DNA of 64,000 nucleotides from Cylicocyclus nassatus. Lineage: Eukaryota; Nematoda; Chromadorea; Rhabditida; Strongylidae. The position numbers and the translations under genes are program-made. Shown here in pieces: positions 2,411 to 58,659 of this stretch (within the stretch, counting starts at the first letter, position 1; each line of letters begins with the position of its first letter). The stretch is taken from contig CATQJL010000112.1 of assembly GCA_958299035.1 (NCBI GenBank), positions 7,788,880 to 7,852,879 of the forward strand, written 5' to 3'. Below the pieces are notes generated by a model. It did no database searches. It was given only the letters and a program-made list of their open reading frames with translations, and was not told where the DNA came from.

Positions 2411-3560
2411 GCGATGGGACAGAAGATGTCAACAAGTTTGTCGTTGCATGCAGGCGTACCGAGCTGATGACTCATCATATTTTTGATGTCTGGTTTAGAT
2501 GGTGTTGATCGACAACCCATGTGCAATCACAAGTAGCTAAACCCAGCCAACGGTAGCATCATTGATTAGAACCATTTAATTCGCGACAGATGGGTTTACA
2601 TTGCGAGGAGCACCTGTACAATTCACGAGCTTGCCATTAGAGCACCCTGGAAAAATGGAGTAAATTCAAATCATTCTGATTCAAATGCCAAAAATTTTAG
2701 GAAAGTCAGCCGCTACGTAACTGATTTTCGAGAAAGGCATGTCAAAAGGAGCGGGAAGGTCGAAAAAGGCGTGTCAAGAGGGGCGAAGAGGAAAAACTGA
2801 GATCCAGAAAATTATGAAGTATACTTTGGCTTAAAAAATTGTTTTTTAACTCCTGAAGGGAACTCGGGCCTTTACTAGAAAAGTAGGAATCACGAGTTGG
2901 GGATTCCCGCAGGAGAAGCATTCAAAAAGGCCAGGAAAAGTTCTTCAATGGTTTTCGTTACGGTTACTCAGGCTGAATAGAGTAAGGAAGAGGAAGGGTG
3001 AGGGGTAAGGAGTGGGTGCACTTTGCCAGGGCCTTTATTTTTCTCTGTCGGTTTCACCTGTCAAAAACTAGTTACTATAAATCTATGAACTTAAAGACAA
3101 AAGCTTGGCGATTTTGTGTGTCTGAAGACCATTGGAGAGAAGAAATTAGTGGAATACCTAAGGAAGAACTTGGGGAGTCAAGCCCACCTCACTCAGGCTT
3201 TATCGATACTTCAATCTAAAACGTCAAAGTGCCATGACTAAGACAGCAAAAAGTAGATCAAGAGCATGCGGAAATTCTAGGCTATTTAGAAAAGCCTTTT
3301 CAAGGAAAAAAAGTTTCGCTGAGTAAGCTTTTGAGAGTAGAAAAAGGGAGATGGGGAGCCGGAAGGGGGGGGGGGAAGCTTCACGTTCAATCAGGTAAAG
3401 GGTTCTTTAATTTCTTTTGAGGAGTTAAACGAGCATACTCCCAATTCATTCCAGCTGCGCGGTTCCATTTCACACACTACGAGCTTTCCACCATCTTCCG
3501 AAGACCAAGGTGAGAAAATCAAAATCCACGTCTTTCCTTGTGACAGCCACATTTGTCGCC
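2411..3560. other. Spacer, possible weak coding on plus strand
   Basis: No repeat family was recognised. A long open frame without a start codon (about 2566-2808, ending in a basic RGAKRKN tail and a TGA) and another at 2998-3219 exist, but neither has clear splice signals. A G-run lies at 3366-3374. Confidence 0.3.
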
Positions 3561-5957
3561 TCAGGACTGCGATAACACGGACAAGCCACCCTGGTAAGGG
3601 GTTGTATTCACTTTGGTCTGTATGTAATATATTGGTATCCAGCAGTTTGTGCAACACATCTTGCCGACCTGGTCATATGTTTTATACTTCCAATAAATTC
3701 GATTAGTTGGACAGTAAGGGGAAAAAATTTTAGTACCCTACTTTCTGGAAACTTGTCAAAATTATTGGAACATTTGTCGGAAAAATCCTTATCTGCACGT
3801 ATAATCTTTACAACCTTCAAACAAGACGACTAAGAATAAGACTTTTCATTGCTCGTACCGCTACTACTAATTCACAAGCGGAACGATGTAATTGGTGTCA
3901 AGAGAGGAACGAATCAGGGAAATTTTACATACAAGAATTGTAAAGAAACAGTCTTTCATCACAGCTACCCTTGTATGTTCGAAAGACTTTTTGTTATAGC
4001 GATGTCGCAGTAGATTGACCGTTATCCTCATATTTCAGGTACATACGTTTTGGTCGGACCGCTTAAAATCAATCCAGTACCGTTGAAGGAAAGCGAAATA
4101 GAATAAGTGCCTCTGCTGAGAAAAATGAGATCATTGTATGCACGAAGTCAGCTTATCAGTTTTGCCCATTTGCTACCTTTCAAATGCGTCAGTGGCTGCT
4201 GGCCGCCCTATATATGCCAAGTCAAGTTCTTACAAAGCTCTGCTTGTCACTGGCGGGTTATTCACTCAGGCGATTTAAAAACTTCAAGCATAACATCAAT
4301 ACACTACTCTAAATTGTCCCACCTTGAATAAGTTTTCTTTGCTTCCACGAAAGTGGTCCTTATATCTAGGATCTTCCATCATCCAATATGCAAATTCCTC
4401 AGCCATGTATTGACTGGCTTTACCGCGCTTCTCGATATATCTAAAATATGATAAATGGTGCAAGAAAAATCGGAAAGGACTGTTACTTTGACTCACTTGA
4501 TATCGAAATCGTACATTATTCCTTCCTTAAGAGTTTTACCGATGTGAACAGCATCCTTGAACTGCCGGCACAAGTCACCTTCCTTCACATATTGCTAAAA
4601 ATGTTGTTTTCTTAAGTTGTAAAATTAAAGTACAGGACATAATTTGCACTAATGATGGCAATAGATCTTTTGTTCTCGAATATATGGATGTAGAAATGCT
4701 GCCCGAAGAAAATTCGACCGGTTCAGAAGCGATTATTTGTGCAAGTATCTAAGCCTACTCAGACAATCACCGGGGGCAGGCGGGCACCGGAAAAATAGAT
4801 TGCTGATCTCTCGCACCCCGCTCGCGGATTTTTTGCAAAGCAATCAGGACTTTTCGGAAGACCGCTTGCTGAATTCTCGATTCCTCAGAGATTCAGCAAT
4901 ATATCTGCAAAAGATAAGAGCGAGAAAAAATTCAACAGGCGGTCTCTCAAAAATTTGCTGACTCAGCAAGCGGTCTTCCGAAAAGTCCTGATTGCTTTGC
5001 AAAAAATCCGCGAGCGGGGTGCGAGAAATCAGCAATCTATTTTTCCGGTGCCCGCCTGCCCCCAGCGATTGTCTGAGTAAGGCCTCGGGCAGAGTTCACG
5101 CGATTTGATCGTCGCGATTCAGTCGCGACAAGACAACTGTTACGAGTTCATTGCATGCCGACCAGCTTGCATTTCGCTTATGATACTTTTCCAGTTCGAA
5201 ATTTTTGAATGGTAAAATGAAAATGAATGGAAATCGCAGCGATTGAATCGCGACGATGAAATCGCGTGATTCTGTCAGAAACCTAAGGCCTTAGGCAGAA
5301 TTCACGCGATTTCATCGTCGCAATTCATCACGACAAGATAAGTGTTACGAGTTCATTGCATGCCTAATTTCTTGTATTTCGGTTGTGATAGTTAGTCACA
5401 ATTAGTCGTGTTGGAAAACTATCACAAACGAAATGCAAGAAGATTGGCATGCAATGATATTGTTGCAGTTATCTTTTGCGAAGAATCGCGACGATGAAAT
5501 CGCGTGAATTCTGCCAGAAGCCTGAGGCATACTTCCGGCGATCTCGTCAGGTCGCTGCATCCCCGCGACAGTAAAAAGCGTCAAGCCCGGCCCAAGGAGT
5601 GCGCTTACGACCAATGATGAAGCGCCGTTACAGGCCGACTGGATTCGCGTGAAGTTTGCCTAAGACGTGAAGGCAAGAGCGTAACTTACCATTCCTAGCT
5701 GACCTCCTTTTCCTGGCTGACCTTCTTTTTTAGTGCAAAAAATGCTGAATCCATTCCTTAGGTTTTGCTCCCAGGTTTCTGGATCCTTGTTGATATTCCA
5801 ATCATATTCTTGACATTTATGAGAATAAAGCTTGGGAAGAGACAAGGGATCAGCGTCGCAGAAGGCGGGCAAGAGCTAAAAACTTTAATCATCACCGATT
5901 TTTCAAGATATATGGTAAATTATATGTACTTACAACGAATATGCGGTAAAACAACAT
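3561..5957 (-). CDS. Six-exon gene for a secreted cysteine-containing protein (209 aa), family not recognised
   Basis: Read on the minus strand, six exons join with every phase consistent: 5957-5934, 5875-5690, 4594-4497, 4440-4323, 3814-3737 and 3686-3561 (TGA). Donors are GTAAGT, GTAAGT, GTGAGT, GTGGGA and GTACTA; acceptors end TTTTTAG, CATTTTTAG, ATATTTTAG, TTTGAAG and TTGGAAG. The protein starts MLFYRIFVLLPAFCDADPLS, a plausible signal peptide. It has about eight cysteines (near residues 14, 29, 55, 79, 157, 179, 180 and 183), including a KMCCTNCW motif near the C-terminus. No domain is recognised; a nematode-specific secreted protein is the inference. Intron 2 (about 1.1 kb) holds a CTCAGACA foldback and two CGCGATTTCATCG MITEs. 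The last two introns use weaker acceptors, so the 3' half of the model is less certain than the 5' half. Confidence 0.7.
4758..5077. mobile_element. CTCAGACA-family foldback element in an intron
   Basis: Termini CTCAGACAATC and GATTGTCTGAG are flanked by TA on both sides. Almost the whole 320 bp is a near-perfect palindrome, with each arm carrying CACCCCGCTCGCGGATTTTT and related sequence. It sits in intron 2 of the minus-strand secreted-protein gene. It shares only its termini with the larger gene-carrying elements. Confidence 0.8.
5081..5288. mobile_element. CGCGATTTCATCG-type MITE, copy 1
   Basis: The left end reads GGCAGAGTTCACGCGATTTG and the right end carries the inverted form (CGATGAAATCGCGTGATTCT). 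It abuts the next copy almost directly and lies in the same intron as the foldback above. Confidence 0.65.
5289..5528. mobile_element. CGCGATTTCATCG-type MITE, copy 2
   Basis: The ends TTAGGCAGAATTCACGCGAT and ATCGCGTGAATTCTGCC are inverted copies. Partial relatives occur at about 31895-31965, 38065-38135 and 38722-38812, so this is a dispersed family. Confidence 0.65.
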
Positions 5958-16830: not shown

Positions 16831-17966
<1,136 letters not shown>

Positions 17967-21732: not shown

Positions 21733-22084
21733 TTAAGCATGGCGACACCATAACAGCATGTTCGCGTAATGATAAAAACGTCTGCGAGGAATATGTGCAC
21801 TGTGGATTTAAACTACCTGTTTGTGCTCAGACAATGGATCGGACCCCTCCGCTGGGCAAGCCGAAACTGCCAGACTCGCGCCGGACCCAATTGACCAATG
21901 AGAGCGGGGCAAATGGGCGGTCCCTCGCGTGACATCACTGCCAGGCAAATGGGAGGCTTCTCCGGCCCTGCTGCAAAGGTCCGCCATTTCTCCGGCGCGA
22001 CCCTGGCAGATTTGCCAGGCTCGCGCCGGACAAATTTGTCCGGCGCGAGCCTGGCAAATCTGGCGGAGTCGCGCCGGAGAAAAT

Positions 22085-22245
22085 CGGAGGGGTCCGGAGC
22101 AGAAATGGGAGGTATCCGGAGCAGAAAATGGGAGGTATCCGGAGCAGAAAATGGGAGGTATCCGGAGCAGAAAATGGGGGGTATCCGGAGCAGAAGATGG
22201 GAGGTATCCGCCGGAGAAATGGGAGGTATTCGGAGCAGGCTGCGT
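22085..22245 (+). repeat. 23-bp minisatellite in the left module
   Basis: Six or seven units of a 23-bp repeat (GGAGCAGAAAATGGGAGGTA plus TCC) lie in tandem. The same unit, or its complement, occurs at 25170-25270, 55905-56020 and 58135-58320. Confidence 0.9.
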
Positions 22246-22637
22246 ATCGATTTGGCGCGTAGCAAGCAAACGTCTAACTCCACGGTGATGAGTCCTCTGT
22301 TTACGCTCTTTGTCCATATTTTAGTCGCCGTTTATTTGATTCTGTTGTTTTTGCGCGTTTCTTTACCGTTTTTTCCTTTTCCGCGTTGCTCTTCGTCGCG
22401 TTGGCGTTTATGTTGCTGTAAGTTCCTCGTTTTCAGGTTTATGTTTGAAATTTTCGTGCGGTTGCACTCAATCACCTTCAGTGTTTGGCTCTTTCCGACT
22501 TGCTGAGACATCGTAGACTATTGATGGAGTGGTTTTTGTGATTAATTCTGGATTTTCGAAACAATGAGGTTAGTTGCGCAACTATCTAGTGTTGTTGTGA
22601 TGAAAGTATCGTCTAAATAATCCGTTTATTGCTATAG

Positions 22638-23353
22638 TGTGGACCCCGGCCAGGTTCCCATAGGTACCTCCGCGGCGCGCCCGCAGCTGCCTTCAGTGCG
22701 CTTTTCGTTTCGGCTCTGAAGGGATTTCTTTCAATTTCCTCTTTCAAGTGTGTTTGTTCTCTTCTGTAATCTCTACTTTAGATGTAAACGACACACGTCA
22801 ACTGCTGGTGATGGATTTTTACGAGTCTTGACAGTCTTGCAAGCATTTGTTTCGAAAATCTTGTTCTTTTCTCAATAGTGAAGATTTCGGTGTAGTTCAG
22901 AGACATCTCTCCAAATGTTCAGAATAAGTGTATATGCAGTTGATTTTGTGGAGTGTAGATGCTTCTAGCCTTTTGTTACACCATCAGAGCTTTGCAATCG
23001 TGCTCTTGAGCTCAAACTTTCTGGGTTTTTTTATGAACAGAAGGAAGACTTTTCAGAATTGTTCTTCGACTTTTCCTGTTACTTCTATCATCCATCGCTG
23101 GTAGTGTCATACACTACTAGCGATGGATAATAGAAGATTCCAGTTATTTATGAGATTGACTGGAATCTGAGCGCTAGTAGTAGAAGTTGTGAAGGTTCTC
23201 CTATTGCCTTGGCTTTTCTCGTGTTCGGATTAGAGGCCTCCACATCTCATTTCACTCCTGTTTTCGGTTATAATGCTTTTTTGTTCGTAAGTGAAATGAG
23301 AAGCGTTCAAGTCGGGCGCGCGTTGCGTGTGCGCCGCGCTAGTACCTGAAGCT
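22638..23353. mobile_element. TA-flanked MITE nested in the transposon cargo
   Basis: The ends GTGTGGACCCCGGCCAG and CTGGCCGGGGTCCACAC are perfect inverted repeats flanked by TA on both sides. The subterminal regions are also inverted (GCGGCGCGCCCGC / GCGCGCGTTGCGTGTGCGCC). The interior codes for nothing recognisable. Confidence 0.8.
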
Positions 23354-23457
23354 GGCCGGGGTCCACACTATCTCTCTCGTACGTATGCTTACCAAGTCGA
23401 TCGACTTTTCATCAGACGTTGCAGATCCTCACTATATCGTTTCTGGCTTGAAAGATA

Positions 23458-24332
23458 GGACAAGGCAAGAGATATGTTGACAAAAGTCTTGGAGGCAACT
23501 CCAAACGATGTTGAAGTTTTGTGACTGTTACTGAAGCATTGTGACTGTTACTGTTGCTTAGTCACATCACATTGCTTCCAGTATTGCTTAGCGAGATTAG
23601 GGACTGATAAGGCTAGGTAAGCATGTAAATGTGAAATGTTTGAGTCACATAGCTTCTTCTTTACTGTTTATGTGACTTTCAATTACAATTTGCAGAATCG
23701 CTTTTGAACAAGCGTTGGAATTGCAAAATGACAATGTTTGTGCTCTCTCAGCACTTGCCATTTTGGATTACAATACGCATACTGTCGAGGGATCCCAAAG
23801 TGCAGTGGCTTGTCTAGGCCAAGCGTATAGTCTGGAGCCGGAGAATCCGGTTGTCTTGGTCCATCTTGCCAACCACTTCTTCTTCAAAGGAGTCAGTGCA
23901 GAAATTCTTTGAATTAATTACGAATTATCTATAAAAGGGACCTTTTAAATTTGTCCAAGCTGTTACATCGAGGTGTTTATCGCTTTATCTGAAGGCATCA
24001 CTTTTTCAGGAAATGAACAAGGTTGAACGGTTAGCGTGGCATGCAATGAGTATGACGGAAAGTGACGAAATCAAGGCCGAAGCTTGTTACATTCTTGCGC
24101 GGTTTTTCCATTTCAACAGAGACTATGAAAAGGCGTTCAAGGTAAGTTGCATATGCAAGAATTTCAATCCATGTCATCATCGTGTCCTAGTACTATTATC
24201 AAGCAACTACGTTGAATCATCCTACTTTCGTTTTGCCCCAGTATGGCCTTGGACCTCGGAATTCGAAGATGTTTGGATGAATATAGCTCATGTATATATC
24301 GCACTTGGACAATATGTCCCTGCTTTGCAAAT
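23458..24332 (+). pseudogene. ctr-9: CTR9 (PAF1 complex TPR protein) gene fragments with introns
   Basis: Three exons match the TPR region of CTR9, a subunit of the RNA polymerase II-associated PAF1 complex. Exon 23696-23891 includes QALELQNDNVCALSALAIL, LGQAYSLEPENPVVL and LANHFFFKG. Exon 24010-24141 includes NKVERLAWHAM and the DYEKAFK end. Exon 24191 starts YYYQATTLNHPTFVLP and YGLG, then, after a frameshift and loss of roughly 500 residues of the normal protein, jumps to EFEDVWMNIAHVYIALGQYV. Introns are intact: 49 nt (24142-24190) with GTAAGT and TAG. A further TPR piece (ARDMLTKVLEATPNDVEVL) at about 23458-23521 lies upstream although its counterpart comes later in CTR9, so order is rearranged. 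The copy cannot encode CTR9. It lies wholly between the end modules of the transposon. Confidence 0.85.
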
Positions 24333-24760
24333 GTGAGTTTATGGCGTTCCTCGCTGTTTTGTTTCATGTTGCACAGAATGCTTTTTTGATCTTTTTGTCA
24401 TTTTCTTACCATGTTAAAACCATATGCTTATACTGTAGTGTTACAAGGTTCTTTTTGCAACTAGGAAATTAGTTTTTCTTTGAATATTCTTATCACTCCT
24501 AGTATGGTTTTTGTAATATGAATTAACTGTTGTACGTATGCTGGAGATAGATAGATAGATTTTTCGAAAGTTTGATAAATTTGAAATAAATGTCTTATCT
24601 CTTCGTTCTTTCTTCTATCTTTATCCACAAACGCTAGGGGTGAGAGGGAGGGGGTAGAGTACGGGGTGAGGGTCGCGCTAAACTCCTACCCGGGGGGGGG
24701 GGGGTCCTATTCGGCTTATTTGGGTGGGGTTTAGAGACAAAATTGGGGTTTGGAGCTTAA

Positions 24761-25115
24761 AGGCAGCGTCCAGGCAAGTCTGGACCTATGGGGATTTTAC
24801 ATGGAAAGTATTTTGGGGCCCTAACTAAGCCACTACCCAACCGGCAGCTCAAGTAGTGCTCTAACGCCTGAGATATTCTGCTCGAAACCGGACCCCGCGA
24901 CCGTGTTTCGCATGGATTCATGGCGCAAAGAGTGGATCCTGGCGCGAAACTGCCATGAATCCATGCGAGTACGTTCGCGGGGGTCTGTTTCGAGGGGAAT
25001 ATCTCAGCCATTGGAGCACTACCTGAGCTGCTGCTTCGGCAGTGCCTTAGTTAGGGCCCCAAAAGTACTTTCCATGTAAAAGCCCCATAGGTCCAGATCT
25101 GCCTGGAAGCTGCCT
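24761..25115. mobile_element. TTAA-duplicating MITE nested in the right module
   Basis: The ends AGGCAGCGTCCAGGC and GCCTGGAAGCTGCCT are inverted repeats flanked by TTAA (24757-24760 and 25116-25119). The whole element is a foldback (CCCCATAGGTCCAGA arms). The related module at 55840-56235 lacks it and reads straight through (CCCTAAATAAGCTCC). Confidence 0.85.
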
Positions 25116-25135
25116 TTAATTAGGGCTAATTACAG

Positions 25136-25285
25136 TATGCCGCGATCGGGGGGCTCCGGCGCACAAAATCGGGGGGCTCCGGAGCAGAAAATGGGAGGTA
25201 TCCGGAGCAGAAAATGGGGGGTATCCGGAGCAGAAATGGGAGGTCTCCGCCGGAGAAATGGGAGGGCTCCGCCGGACGAATGGGT
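25136..25285 (-). repeat. 23-bp minisatellite in the right module
   Basis: Units of CTCCGGAGCAGAAAATGGGA type alternate with variants (CGCACAAAATCGGGGGG). The unit is the same as in the left module. Confidence 0.8.
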
Positions 25286-25354
25286 GACCCACCGCTGGGG
25301 AAACGCCGCGACCCTGCCATTTCCCCAGCGGAGGGGTCCGATCCATTGTCTGAG

Positions 25355-25957
25355 TGATAGGTAAGCGATTGCTAGCATGGCAGTTGATCCTTCTCGCTAA
25401 TCCTGGTGGCGCTATCTCCTATTGCTTAACTTGGGAACGCGATCAAGAACACTAGTACAACAGAGACTCAACTGCCAATACATTACACTAGCTAAGTAGC
25501 ACATTTTCAGGAATGCCAAACTTTCTCGTATAGTACCGGGTTGTAGAGGATAGGTGCCCTCATAAATGCTGCAGTTTTTTTGTTGGTTTTTTTTGGCAGA
25601 TAAACAATGTGATGGTATTTGAACACTTGTTGAGCCTTATGCTTTACAAAAGTGAAGCAAATGCGAATAACTTAAGCAAGTTTCGTTTCTATACACATCA
25701 AAAATCAAAGTCCAAATCCTATACAATGATCAAAAATCGTACCAAAAAACCAGTGTGAGGCGAACAAAAGAATTCTAAATGGTCGCATACATGCTGCTAA
25801 TAGCTATGAATGCACTCTCTCACACACAAGGGTGCTTATTCCACATCACAACATTGTAATATACACGCCTGAATATGGCGCATTCTACCATTCGCAAGCG
25901 CTTCAAACGACCTCGGACATTCAAAAAGTACTAGAGCTATTTAGCATTTGATGTTAA
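25355..25957. other. No feature recognised
   Basis: Spacer flanking the large transposon; no gene or repeat supported. Confidence 0.3.
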
Positions 25958-49238: not shown

Positions 49239-50610
49239 TTAGGTTGGCTCGAAAATTCTCCGACATTTTCAAACTGAATCTGTTATCTCAAAAAGTAATA
49301 CATATACATCCTTAAAAATTTGCAGCTCTACTCTCTCGCCTATAGCTAATACTCAAGCAACTGAGAGGAGCCTAAGATCAGTGAAGGCAAGGTTTGCCAC
49401 ACTTTCAGTCACCTCGTTTTTTCGTTGTTCAAGCTAAAATTCCGTTTAAACTATGCATGTAAGTATGTAAGTATGTGTATACCATAAATTGGAGCATGCG
49501 GGGGTTTTATAACGTTTACGGAATTGTGGATCTGGGTTAGGTCAGAATCAGGGCCCGGCAGGAGGTGGCATTTCAGAATTTTGAAAACGATATCCCCTTT
49601 GAAGCCAAAATTTCTTACGACTTCTCCTTTGACCCTATTTTTGACCCCCGTAAGTCCCTGACAAACAGATATACACAAATAATAAGATCGGCGGCCGCAG
49701 CGCTTATTATAGTAGTACTACCTGGCTTTCCTGGTCCAGCCCGGGTCATAAAGTTTCAGCTCAATGGGTTCATCCGCAAAGGAATCTATAAAAAAAACAT
49801 AGGGTCAAGATTTGCACAAACATTGACGTTTATATACCTAAGATACTACTCATTTATTAGTCAGCTGCGAAACTTTACAATTTACAATAACCGATTGAGA
49901 TTGAAGCGCGTTTTCCGAGGCCGATCATAACGCTGTGAACCCTATTTGGGGCTGTATCGAAGCGGTGCCTTGGTGGTTTTGGAAGCAGCTTTGAACATAT
50001 AGTAATACTCTCGACCTAGTCCACATTTATGTAAAGAAATCCGGGAAATTATGTGAAGGGAAGCAGGGAGCAACTCCAGGTCGCTCCCAGGTGGCGCGGG
50101 AGCCACCTAATTTCGAAAAACACTTACCATTTTTTAAACTCACATAAGTTTTTCATAATTCTTCATACTTTTTTGTGCTCATGGTCCTCCAACTACACAG
50201 CAAATTTGGTGCCATATCGTTACTTGTGCATTGAAAACGAGCCTATTTTGTTAATTTCTTCTTACAAGAATCGCGATTTGAATTCCCGCCTGCGGGCAGG
50301 CTAGCGATCGGAGCACAGAATCTTCACATTGCTGGGATCTAAGTTCATAGGACAGTAGCATCAACAAGGGATGATGAATAAAGAATGATATGTGCATTGT
50401 AAGCGCCACCCCCGCCGGGCCCTGGTCAGAATCTATGCTTTAGAATTTTTGCCTACATTTTCATTAAAAAAACGCTGATGATGTTTATGCTTATTTCAGT
50501 TTGTAGAGATTGCTTTTTCTATACAACGTTACGCAGCATGCCCCAATCAATGCGTACATCAAAACAAAAATTTTGTCTAAATATATCTGAGAGCTTTCGA
50601 GCCAACTTAA
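49239..50610. mobile_element. Mariner-like MITE with nested hAT element
   Basis: The ends TTAGGTTGGCTCGAAAATTC and GCTTTCGAGCCAACTTAA are inverted, with TA at 49237-49238 and 50611-50612. The hAT element 49549-50424 sits inside. The next MITE starts immediately after the shared TA. Confidence 0.75.
49549..50424. mobile_element. hAT-like element with perfect 8-bp duplication
   Basis: The ends CAGGGCCCGGCAGGAGGTGG and CCACCCCCGCCGGGCCCTG are inverted and flanked by GTCAGAAT on both sides (49541-49548, 50425-50432). The related MITE at 47285-47520 lacks the insertion. A GCTCCAGGTCGCTCCCAGGTGG segment lies inside. No transposase. Confidence 0.9.
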
Positions 50611-50612
50611 TA

Positions 50613-51559
50613 TTAGGTTGTTACATAAGTCTTGTTACACTTAACTTCTAACGGCAATAAGTCATACACCTCATAGTCTTTGCAGGACTCCAAGGTACCA
50701 TTCGATAGAGCATAGCAAGCTCTACAAGATGGTCTGCAAAAGTTCGCACCAGCTCCGACCCACCGTAAGTTTGCACCCAAAATCTGAGTCGTACTGAAAT
50801 TCAAAAAATCGCAAAAAATTCATATCTTTCTTCAGAAAAATCCTACAAATCTCCAACTTGTTCACAAAAATTGCCCACTATATCAGACACTTATATGTAC
50901 CGTTGCTGTATTTTTTCCTTATCTAGAAATCGAGAAAAAGAATTTTTTCAGTTTTTACAAAAAGGAAGCCATGCTGTTTCTACTCATGTAGCTGTATACT
51001 ACAAACTTTTGAAAGTATAACTGTAAATTTTCAGCTTCCCAGAAGCTCTAGTTTTCGAGAAATACCAAATTTAGCTTTTGTCACTCGGGTGTTCAATGCC
51101 AAATTGAGTAATTTTCGAAAACTAAGGCTTCTAGAGGGCTGAAAATTTACGGTTATATTTCTAAAGGCTTGTAGTATACAGCTACGTAAATAGAAACAGC
51201 ATAGCTTCGTTTTTGTAAAAAATAAAAAATTCTTTTTTTTCGATTTCCAGATAAGGAAAAAATACAGCAACGGTACATACAAGTGTTTGATATAGTGGGC
51301 AATTTTTGTGAGCAAGTTGGAGATTTGTAGGATTTTCTGAAGAAAGATATGAATTTTTCGCGATTTTTTGAATTTCAGTACGACTCAGATTTTGGGTGCA
51401 AACTTACGGTGGATCGGAGCTGGTGCGAAATTTTGCAGACCATCTTGTAGAGCTTGCTTGGCTCTATCGAATGGTACCTTGGAGTCCTGCAAAGACTATG
51501 AGGTTTATGACTTATCGCCGTTAGAAGTTAAGTGTAACAAGACTTATGTAACAACCTAA
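50613..51559. mobile_element. Mariner-like foldback MITE, near-perfect palindrome
   Basis: The ends TTAGGTTGTTACATAAGTCT and AGACTTATGTAACAACCTAA are perfect inverted repeats with TA on both sides. The two 470-bp arms remain nearly identical, so both strands show the same open frame (NFSTTQILGANLRW), an artefact of the palindrome. Confidence 0.9.
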
Positions 51560-51561
51560 TA

Positions 51562-51872
51562 CTATATGATTTTACTTGTAGGGGTGTGCTGGGTAAACAA
51601 AAGTTTGAAGGCTGCTACTCATGCCACAACGTAAGCTGATCATAGAAAAAAATGACTAGAAGTGCCACAATGTAGAGATGCGTGGAAGGCAAAAATAACA
51701 GCTTGCATTGTAGGTCCTCTGATTTTAGCAAGCCGAGAAGATCGGTGTTGAGTAGATCTTCTGAACTTGACAGTATCTCAAAAGCAGAAACCTTGGGGGT
51801 TTGGGCCTTGATCTTCGCAGCAACGTTCAGGAAGCAGAATACTTGAAAGTATTTTATGCCGAAAAGAGCCAA
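51562..51872 (-). pseudogene. LINE 3' end, inverted copy
   Basis: The minus strand reads ALFGIKYFQVFCFLN and ILSSSEDLLNTDLLGLLKSE, the better-preserved version of the plus-strand LINE end at 46960-47282. The two copies face each other across the mariner/hAT cluster. Confidence 0.65.
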
Positions 51873-55839: not shown

Positions 55840-55904
55840 CTCAGACAGCCGATCGGACCCCTCCGGCGCAGAAACGGCAGGGCCGCGGGGTTTCCCCAGC
55901 GGGG

Positions 55905-56020
55905 GGTCTGCCACTCGTGCGCCGGAGCCCCCCGATTTTCTGCGCCGGAGCCCCCCGATTTTGTGCGCCGGAGCCCCCCGATTTTGTGCGGCGGAGCCCC
56001 TCCCCCCCCATTTTGTGCTC
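55905..56020 (-). repeat. 23-bp minisatellite in the right module
   Basis: About five units of GCCGGAGCCCCCCGATTTTG(TGC) type in tandem. Confidence 0.85.
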
Positions 56021-56261
56021 CGCAAGTCTGCCGCGGCATTTTGTAACTAACCCTAAATAAGCTCCAAACCCCAATTATGTCTCTAAACCCCACCCAAATT
56101 AGCCGAATACGAACCCCCCCCCCCCGGGTAGGACTTCAGCGCGACCCTCACCCCCGTACTCTACCCCCTCCCTCTCACCCCTAGCGTTTGTAGATAGAAA
56201 ATAGAAGAGTGAAGACAAGACGAAACATTTATTTCAAATTGACTGCAAAACGATTTACTGA

Positions 56262-57220
56262 AAATTGCAGTTGTTTTGATTTGCATCCAATTCTGTTTGT
56301 GCCAGATGTGATGAGATGCAGTTCGATCACTACGGGCTTGGTTATCGGGAGGAACAGCTCCGGTCGAGTTCAACGTTGTGTGGTCCTCGAGCGATTCCTC
56401 CAAAAAACACACTCTGGATAACATTGGTGGAGTGGCCGTGGAGGTTAATCGGAATTTTTTTAGTGATAGGTGTCGTAATTTGTGGTTTTTCCAGGTTTAT
56501 AAGTGCGAAGCTCTTGCATCGAACTGTGGCCGATGTCTTATGCTGAATGCCGAAAAGTATGAATGTGGCTGGTGTGTTATAGACAACAGATGTGTTAGAC
56601 CAATGGCATGCTTGGCAAGATCACCACAAGATTGGCTGAATAGCACGCAGCTGTGTGCAAATCCAGCTAATGAAGTCTTCAGTCCTAAAAAGGGGACCCG
56701 TCGGTGGAAAAACGAAGGTTAGGTCTACTGCTGCTGCGTTCACCTGTGGAATTGCGCTTTTACTAGCGAGAAAGTACTATCAGGTGGGGTGACCATGTGT
56801 GATGAGACTAGTGAACCAGTAACTAAAGGTACCTTGCCAAGCATCTTGCCAAGCATGCCATTGGTCTAAACATCTGTTGTCTATAACACACCAGCCACAT
56901 TCACATTCATTCATACTTTTCAGGACATCGGCCGATGTAAGACATCGGCCACAGTTCGATGCAAGAACTTCGCACTTATAAACCTGGAAAAACCACAAAT
57001 TACGACACCTATCACTAAAAAAATTCCGATTAACCTCCGCGGCCACTCCACCAATGTTATCTAGAGTGTGTTTTCTGGAAGAATCTCTCGAGGACCACAC
57101 AACGTGAACTCGACCGGAGCTGATCCTCCCGATACACCAAGCCCGTAGTGATCGAACTGCATCTCATCACAAGCACAAACAGAATTGGATGCAAAATCAA
57201 AACAATTGCAATTTTCCTCA
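56262..57220. repeat. Inverted duplication of a plexin segment
   Basis: The left arm (about 56262-56630) and right arm (about 56845-57216) are inverted copies with few differences, around an axis near 56740. Both include intron sequence before the PSI exon (GGTGTCGTAATTTGTGGTTT). Confidence 0.85.
56495..56720 (+). pseudogene. Plexin PSI-domain exon, inverted copy
   Basis: After an acceptor (GTGGTTTTTCCAG) the frame reads VYKCEALASNCGRCLMLNAE and YECGWCVIDNRCVRP, then DWLNSTQLCANPA: a plexin PSI domain with its cysteine pattern. The following FSPKKG would continue into an IPT domain (GPVGGKTKV), but an extra G in the GGGG run near 56695 shifts the frame. It lies in the left arm of the inverted duplication. 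Confidence 0.8.
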
Positions 57221-57486
57221 TATCACATTGTCGTCGAATGTCCCGACAGCAGGTTTTTCGCGTTCAATGTTTCCTACTTTAAAATGACATCGAAAATCCG
57301 TCATGAAGATCAGATCGAGGTTTTGGACCTTACAAATCCAAGCTCCAAAATGAGCACTTCGTAGAATGTACCACTCACCTTCACTGTGATATCTCTCCTT
57401 TCACCTGCAGCTTCGTAAAGTTTGGTTTGCGGTGCGACGATACGTGGACATTTCTGTGGACCTTTTCTCCTAGAGTGACCCTCACG
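56845..57486 (-). pseudogene. Plexin multi-exon fragment
   Basis: Minus-strand pieces follow plexin order: exon 57486-57379 (after TTTGCATTCCAG; QKCPRIVAPQTKLYEAAGER, ending DITVK and a GTGAGT donor); exon to 57227 (GAWICKVQNLDLIFMTDFRC, HFKVGNIEREKPAVGTFDDN); exon from 57156 (FDHYGLGVSGGSAPVEFTLC, GPREILPENTL); and the PSI exon from 56983 (VYKCEVLASNCGRCL, ECECGWCVIDNRC). The CP-x-I and WICKV pattern is typical of the region between plexin PSI domains. Defects: a frameshift at the first join, TAG after PENTL (the other arm has TGG), and a small duplication in the PSI exon. Plexins are semaphorin receptors; this piece lacks the sema, transmembrane and GAP domains. Confidence 0.75.
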
Positions 57487-58134
57487 CTGGAATGCAAATT
57501 TGAAGGCTTATCTATCATCAGAAACAAGGACGCAGACTTTCCCTGCATATTATGACTTTGTGCAAAGTCTGAGAACTTGGAGTCTCGAAAAAAAAATGAA
57601 AATTTCTTGAGCGCCGTCACAATTTCTAACAGGTAAACTGTAAGTAGACGATATACTGAAAATGTGAAAGAGTTGCATGAACTTGCATAGCAGATCTGCA
57701 TTTAGCAAGACTGCGACAGACTAACCGTATAAGATATTCCCTGAGACAGAGCCAAGCAGTGTACGGATAATTCTAGCATCAATCAATCCCGGAAACACGG
57801 AAATAATTCAAGAGACACCACATAAGGGTACCGAGGCCAAATCTCAATCACAAAAACCACTCCATCAATAGTCAATGATGTCTCAGCAAGTCGAAAAGAG
57901 CCAAACACTAAAAGTGACTAAGTGCATCCGCACGAAAACCTAAAACCTGAAACCTGAAAAGAAGGAGATGAACAAATAAACGCCAGTGCGCCGACGAGGA
58001 ACACGAAAAACCAAAAAAAAAAGAACGAGCGCGAAAGAACGACAAAAAACGAGTAAGACGAGAGCGATGGCAACTTATTTTCGAAACTGCTAAGCTGCGT
58101 ATCACAGCAAACTGACTGCGTACATATATCTGCG

Positions 58135-58320
58135 CCGGACCCCTCCCATTTTGTGCGCCGGACCCCTCCCATTTTGTGCGCCGGACCCCTCCCATTTTGT
58201 GCGCCGGACCCCTCCCATTTTGTGCGCCGGACCCCTCCCATTTTGTGCGCCGGAGGCCTCCCATTTTCTGTGCCGGAGCCCTCCCATTTTCTGTCCCGGA
58301 CCCCTCCGATTTTCTGCTCC
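58135..58320 (-). repeat. 23-bp minisatellite in the left module
   Basis: About eight units of CGCCGGACCCCTCCCATTTTG(TG) in tandem, with variants (GCCTCCCATTTTCTGTGCCG) at the right. It is the complement of the unit at 22085. Confidence 0.9.
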
Positions 58321-58659
58321 ACGGCTCGTCCAAATCTGGCGGACTCGCGGCGGGCAAATCTCTGCGCCGCGACCCCAGCAAATCTGGCGTACTTGCGGCG
58401 GAGAGATTTGCAAGCCCGCCGGAGGGGTCCGATCTGCCTTCTTGTGACGTCACAAGAAGGGACCGCCTCCTCGCCCCGCTCTCATTGGTCAACTGGGTCC
58501 GCCGCGGCTCTGGCAGATTTCGACTGTCCGCCGGAGGGGTCCGATCGACTGTCTGAGTATGTTCCTATTGAAGCAGCAAAAAATTGCGAAATGCCTTTTG
58601 GCTAATAGGAAAATGGAGATAAGAGAGAAAAACGGAGTAGAACACTAGACTGATTTTAA

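Follow-up and report, generated by a model that had tools for sequence, protein, structure and literature searches.

A probable Pack-type transposon family carrying intron-containing host gene pieces in the nematode Cylicocyclus nassatus

In a 64,000-bp stretch of the Cylicocyclus nassatus genome (hereafter the window, C112:7788880-7852879 of a 514.7-Mb assembly), we identified one complete terminal inverted repeat (TIR) element at window positions 21826-25354, which carries CTR9 DNA together with its introns. With its relatives elsewhere in the genome, this element probably represents a Pack-type TIR transposon family in a nematode, in which intron-containing host pieces lie between fixed ends and the cargo has likely been gained and replaced piecewise by template-switching gap repair. 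Gene capture by cut-and-paste transposons has so far been treated largely as a plant phenomenon and is hardly known in animals. C. nassatus is a strongylid parasite of horses, and this single strongylid genome contains cargo-bearing elements (packs) derived from at least seven donors, together with a donor gene that is still intact. A graded series of these packs bears the same scar, so that one can read in what order capture, replacement, and amplification took place.

An element with CTR9 cargo and its copies in the genome

The ends of the window element are sharply defined. The 31-bp end CTCAGACAATGGATCGGACCCCTCCGCTGGG is exact at 21826-21856 (plus strand) and 25324-25354 (minus strand), confirming the perfect inverted ends described in the initial annotation, and it was matched in none of 100 shuffled sequences, which rules out a chance match. 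The TIR arms reach 34 nt with a single mismatch (33/34, 97%; left arm 21826-21859, plus strand; right arm 25321-25354, minus strand), and the element is bounded by identical 2-bp flanks, a TG target-site duplication (TSD) at 21824-21825 and 25355-25356 that adds to the initial annotation. Inside the left TIR, the left end module (21826-22635, plus strand) has GC-rich inverted repeats, 23-bp subterminal tandem repeats (22078-22238), and an inner module; the cargo types read have it in common as far as element positions 768-822. The right end module (24571-25354, plus strand) has an AATAAA near its inner edge and further 23-bp subterminal repeats (25155-25284). The termini are CTCAGACA...TGTCTGAG, that is, CTC...GAG in the elements read.

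The identity of the cargo is well supported, with 110 amino acids from two exons, split by an intron, matching human CTR9 (2.9e-28). As initially proposed, the introns are kept, with GT/AG borders in 16 aligned copies, ruling out a retrocopy. The further claim that CTR9 exons lie exactly between the two end modules stands in part: CTR9 DNA is indeed there, but a miniature inverted-repeat transposable element (MITE) intervenes, and the CTR9 DNA is a rearranged patchwork instead of one colinear block.

Copies of the element are numerous. A genome search with the left module gave matches 95-100% identical among the best 40 of 1176 first-look candidates, which were the ones scored. The elements that we read were picked by similarity to one left module or by the author and form a non-random sample. 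In the 20 next-best stretches after the window (L031-L050), a right TIR lies 3.3-4.6 kb downstream and the 2-bp flanks are identical in all 20; adding L027/L051, L052, and L053, every left module followed to its far end (23/23) is paired with an inverse right TIR and a 2-bp TSD. Thus the possibility that the end modules occur independently of each other finds no support from the left-module side (the right module alone was not searched), and the possibility that only the two window elements exist is excluded, since many inverse pairs with diverse host exons occur in the part of the genome checked.

Together with the two window elements, these make 25 complete elements with an exact 2-bp TSD in each, and L055 is a 26th (TC), all within this selected sample. 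The 25 TSDs comprise 12 different dinucleotides (TA seven times, TG and TC three times each, and the others once or twice), the flank match extends to 3 bp in none of the 25, and the printed flanks of the 26 complete elements differ from one another. L028 and L029 lie about 150 kb apart on C112 in opposite orientation with the same 10 upstream bases, and one may be a segmental copy. A 1.1-kb form (L053:517-1617) has both TIRs and expanded 23-bp subterminal repeats without cargo; coordinates suggest forms of ~0.5-0.7 kb like it at C305:74017287, C305:2745226, and C1:51349198.

A second element with the same end modules and different cargo, as the initial annotation had noted, lies within the window at 55840-58557 (minus strand). 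It is a complete family member with a TA TSD and belongs to a more diverged subfamily, its left module being 80% identical to that of the first element (545/680 aligned bases) and its right module 92% (166/181). Its Plexin-A cargo (56373-57105, minus strand) contains two copies of a PSI domain exon that form an inverted duplication (arms at 56373-56540 and 56938-57105); among solved structures Plexin-A1 is its best relative (1.1e-13), and the PSI domain is matched at 3.2e-8. A search for this subfamily gave 1617 candidates, of which the best 40 were scored. The locus L058 (C305:9645600-9648100; TIRs not read) carries the plexin cargo including the inverted duplication, at 94.6% identity over 1662 aligned bases. 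L058 turns into other sequence past its match to second-element position 2320, and the stretch read has no right TIR.

Donor genes and the history of the CTR9 packs

The same ends carry pieces of different genes. In all 30 loci readable 1.9 kb inward, the left module is at least 98% identical to at least element position 767, and beyond it the cargo is CTR9 in 16 (including the window element), that of the L003/L005 class in nine, that of the L004/L008/L030 class in three, and unique in L010 and L027 (alignments below 250 bases were left out here; other comparisons used minima of 90, 150, or 170). From protein and domain matches we recognize seven donor genes: CTR9, a DUF7802 gene, a family-2 glycosyltransferase (GT2), an ankyrin gene, PRIM1, KDM4, and Plexin-A. 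DUF7802 was matched by two loci of the L003/L005 class read further as L032 and L034, which are longer stretches of L003 and L005 (1e-11 and 1e-13), GT2 by L037, which is L008 (6e-9), and ankyrin repeats by L039, which is L010 (2e-7 and 4e-5). L052, with a left module at 96.5%, matches the DNA primase small subunit PRIM1 in a solved-structure search (2.6e-16) and in Pfam (4.5e-14), one of its two PRIM1 peptides being named by the solved-structure search alone. One peptide of the GT2 cargo had no solved relative in the search, and six other cargo peptides had no Pfam family at E 0.1. Read from the left to the right module, the exons of all seven identified donors are in sense orientation, with plexin exons inverted as well.

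L027 joins a KDM4 match (6.6e-17) to a second donor segment; a suspected resemblance of that segment to ABHD5 had no Pfam match, and the segment is left unnamed. Query bases 1-228 of L027 recur at four other loci (91-98%) where the remainder of the query is missing, and bases 228-1970 align at 89% and without a break to one locus, C316:51402632-51404381 (10/10 candidates scored), which is likely the KDM4 donor. Three further places or place pairs match bases 228-1970 at 97-100% and look like pack copies.

The CTR9 donor gene itself is present, with intact exons at C223:37950359-37952958, outside the element; no TIR was found in the 4.5 kb checked there (L054 and L056). Donor coordinates below refer to a 5,701-bp reverse complement of this stretch. 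In the window element, a TA-flanked MITE at about 22636-23369 separates the left module from the CTR9 DNA at the cargo's left edge, a site that is empty in L055 and L039. It is followed by five CTR9 pieces, all on the plus strand. Piece 1 (23379-23453; donor 4502-4576) starts with the 11-bp GTACGTATGCT, and piece 2 (23457-23521; donor 2910-2974) is separated from piece 3 by a 60-bp filler (23522-23581) without a match in the 5.7-kb donor stretch. Piece 3 (23582-24254; donor 928-1604) contains the exons RIAFEQ.., EMNKVE.., and YYYQATT.. and is joined out of frame to piece 4 (24253-24471; donor 4165-4382), which contains the exon EFEDVWMNIAHVY... Piece 5 (24475-24542; donor 4441-4512) ends with the second GTACGTATGCT (24532-24542), and both the deletion scar that precedes it and its right edge are common to other cargo classes. 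Beyond it, the right module contains a nested, MITE-like inverted repeat bordered on each side by TTAA (24757-25119), which is not present in the element at 55840-58557. The modules, the two MITEs, the CTR9 pieces, and the filler largely explain the window element.

A longer CTR9 type also exists. Using a query of CTR9 residues mostly missing from the window element, we obtained 104 matches (107/107 candidates scored): two exons of the intact gene (C223:37950359-37951104), 61 window-type places, recognizable by their stop codons (all 16 complete copies read are among them), and 41 rows that fall in 19 longer-type loci. The one longer-type locus that we read, L055, is a complete element in which the left module is followed by donor 4502-4576, donor 2909-3582, a 998-bp foldback insertion, donor 3574-4382, donor 4439-4512, and the right module. 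The foldback insertion (L055:2969-3967) has 282-bp arms (94%), with donor 3574-3582 as a short direct repeat on either side. The first CTR9 insert is thus circularly permuted, [4502-4576][2909-4512], with an 11-bp overlap; the donor stretch has a single copy of the 11-mer GTACGTATGCT, and L055 and all 16 window-type copies have two each. The junctions that bound the CTR9 DNA read CTCTC/GTACGTATGCTTACC on the left and GTACGTATGCT/GGAGATAG on the right.

CTR9 remnants also persist in packs with other cargo, and they shorten class by class. L033 and L037 retain donor 3978-4382 and 4439-4512, L032 and L034 retain 4263-4382 and 4441-4512, and L039 retains 4439-4512. The right edge at donor 4512 is common to all five classes (L055, window type, L033/L037, L032/L034, and L039), as is the deletion after donor 4382, except in L039, which does not reach that far left. 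Because of this common edge and deletion, a single CTR9 pack likely gave rise to the five classes, with later cargo taking the place of its interior and the right-hand remnant being kept. In L027 and L052 no CTR9 remnant was found by comparison with the donor stretch.

The upstream CTR9 exons in piece 3 have a different distribution. The donor 928-1604 exons were found at the true gene (C223:37952510-37952958) and at 63 loci including the window (127/127 candidates scored), 61 of which also show the rearranged piece 2 of the window type, and at none of the 19 longer-type loci. This tract was therefore likely not inherited from the longer type as read in L055, and piece 3 is likely a later acquisition; the window-type lineage likely returned to the host CTR9 gene for the upstream exons.

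Spread followed capture. The 16 window-type copies differ by a mean of 0.45% in pairwise comparison (range 0.09-0.88%), against about 3-4% between pack and donor over the longer tracts, so the spread of the window type is younger than the capture. Differences from the donor number 14/660 in exons and 33/962 at other sites for L055, and 7/383 and 29/713 for the window element (not every exon is marked); constraint on the donor would by itself produce such a contrast, and we therefore draw no function from it.

Pack exons also enter gene annotation. P0005, a predicted C. nassatus protein of 159 amino acids, has an unrelated N-terminal stretch, found in none of the loci compared, followed by CTR9 pack exons and ending in the out-of-frame pack junction; this is annotation, not proof of expression. 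A 2,462-base ENA contig, P0003, has the same pack-specific CTR9 fusion as the window, with one residue different in the part compared, and possibly comes from another sample of C. nassatus or from a related worm.

How cargo may be acquired and exchanged

From the TIRs and TSDs, we propose that these elements would be mobilized by a transposase supplied in trans. A double-strand gap within an element would be repaired with the new strand jumping to unrelated host DNA, and an element already bearing CTR9 cargo could be guided back to the CTR9 gene by homology between the two, so obtaining the second, upstream stretch. With sense exons and an AATAAA close to the inner edge on the right, element transcripts would be able to end normally. 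We favor template-switching repair because later cargo sits within older cargo and the pieces are patched. More tentatively, the family may act as a self-updating exon shuffler in which fixed ends swap cargo, homology leads back to the same gene, and the founding capture came from a circular template, such that capture would proceed via repair on circles as well as chromosomes.

Several points weigh against this proposal. No autonomous element or transposase turned up, no search aimed at a transposase having been made. The gap-repair step is read solely from the architecture of the elements, and the four junctions examined overlap by at most a base or so. Donor loci have been located for CTR9 and likely for KDM4, not for DUF7802, GT2, ankyrin, PRIM1, or plexin, and L027 and L052, in which no CTR9 remnant was found, may not descend from the CTR9 pack. 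A pack since lost could be the source of the upstream CTR9 tract. The elements were chosen by left-module similarity (the best 40 of 1176) or by the author and do not represent family-wide diversity, and donor peptides were chosen by eye from open reading frames listed for both strands, a possible source of bias in the orientation count. Finally, the permutation of the first CTR9 insert is explained equally well by an extrachromosomal circle and by looped template switching.

Such a circle would be 1,668 bp of CTR9 DNA (donor 2909-4576), copied or integrated after being read slightly more than once around. The order [4502-4576][2909-4512] with GTACGTATGCT at both ends is as expected for one lap plus 11 bases, the 11-mer is single in the 5.7-kb donor, and we roughly estimate, without computing it, that so close a fit would arise by chance about 1 in 100 times. 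Nevertheless, this is a single event noticed after the fact, no circle has been observed, and two independent template jumps could end close together, and we consider a circular origin possible but doubtful. Rather unlikely, in our view, is a fusion of neighbors, in which a pair of insertions close together would lose the ends that face each other, leaving the outer ends to mobilize the intervening host DNA; this model was put forward for Arabidopsis Pack-CACTA and is favored for those elements in the available parts of three plant studies (PMC8903248, PMC8616336, and PMC13317346). The KDM4 cargo, matching a contiguous 1.7-kb donor stretch, is as this model predicts; however, the model calls for a colinear host block, whereas the CTR9 insert is permuted and patched, and later cargo classes retain graded CTR9 remains at one edge. 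Neighbor fusion, gap repair, and circles can now be tested against each other from sequence. That these are members of an ordinary repeat family, with host exons brought between unrelated repeats by segmental duplication or chance, is highly improbable: the 10 upstream bases common to L028 and L029 indicate that some copies may be segmental, but the exact 2-bp TSD in 26/26 complete elements with differing flanks, and the unrelated genes between the same ends, contradict it in the elements read.

Relation to known transposons and other features of the window

In its workings the element resembles a plant Pack-TYPE element. The accessible part of PMC8903248 describes Pack-TYPE elements as non-autonomous TIR elements with TSDs that carry and multiply pieces of host coding genes. 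TIRs and a TSD are present in 26/26 complete elements examined, and for CTR9 a host fragment lies inside while its donor, elsewhere, lacks the ends; for KDM4, coordinates and identity place a likely donor elsewhere, its flanks not having been read for TIRs. The gene capture by Pack-type logic that the initial annotation proposed is thus supported, with 23/23 inverse end pairs, different host exons between them, and the CTR9 and likely the KDM4 donor elsewhere. The likeness to Pack-MULE and Pack-CACTA lies in the TIRs, the TSDs, and the multiplied host gene pieces. Unlike the plant elements, those described here have an animal host, a variable 2-bp TSD, and the termini CTCAGACA...TGTCTGAG, their cargo has likely been swapped in place leaving scars, and a second acquisition from the same donor gene is likely.

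The closest animal parallel among the systems compared is Turmoil-1 of the nematode Caenorhabditis elegans, a Harbinger DNA transposon that has transduplicated an intron along with host exons. According to the portion of the 2008 report available to us, protein-coding transduplication was previously unknown in animals, and Turmoil-1 bears a transposase and two captured fragments inside 760-bp inverted terminal repeats; a single complete copy and eight fragments are described, and the TSD usual for its superfamily is 3 bp long (PMC2572040). The family described here differs in having seven identified donors, short TIRs, 63 loci of one pack type, and a 2-bp TSD. Titles and the beginnings of abstracts gave no report of Pack-type elements in strongylids, most subscription papers being outside this scope.

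The initial view that the termini match no superfamily that can be named still holds, as none of CACTA, MULE, mariner, Harbinger, and Helitron agrees in every feature. Short subterminal repeats are typical of CACTA elements, MULEs have TSDs of 8-10 bp, Tc1/mariner elements target TA only, and Helitrons have neither TIRs nor a TSD. MULEs and Pack-MULEs are rejected here by the 2-bp TSD (25/25, with a 3-bp match in 0/25), Tc1/mariner by the use of TA in only 7/25 elements with eleven other dinucleotides in the remaining 18, and Helitrons by the presence of TIRs and a TSD. CACTA-type (CMC) elements, as described in the available text of PMC6004678, have a 2-bp TSD, as here, but invariable CAC...GTG termini, in place of which we find CTC...GAG. 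The 3-bp TSD given for PIF/Harbinger in the consulted part of PMC2572040 likewise differs from the 2 bp seen here.

A protein search with the long open reading frame of the left module returned one short unnamed protein as its sole match. No tRNA or Rfam match was found in the window, and a scan of viral contigs for the TIR gave no match. Elsewhere in the window are a nearly perfect (AC)n array of 290 bp (16949-17238) and large nested inverted repeats at 50608-51564, foldback-like, with arms of 232 and 242 nt (97% and 86%).

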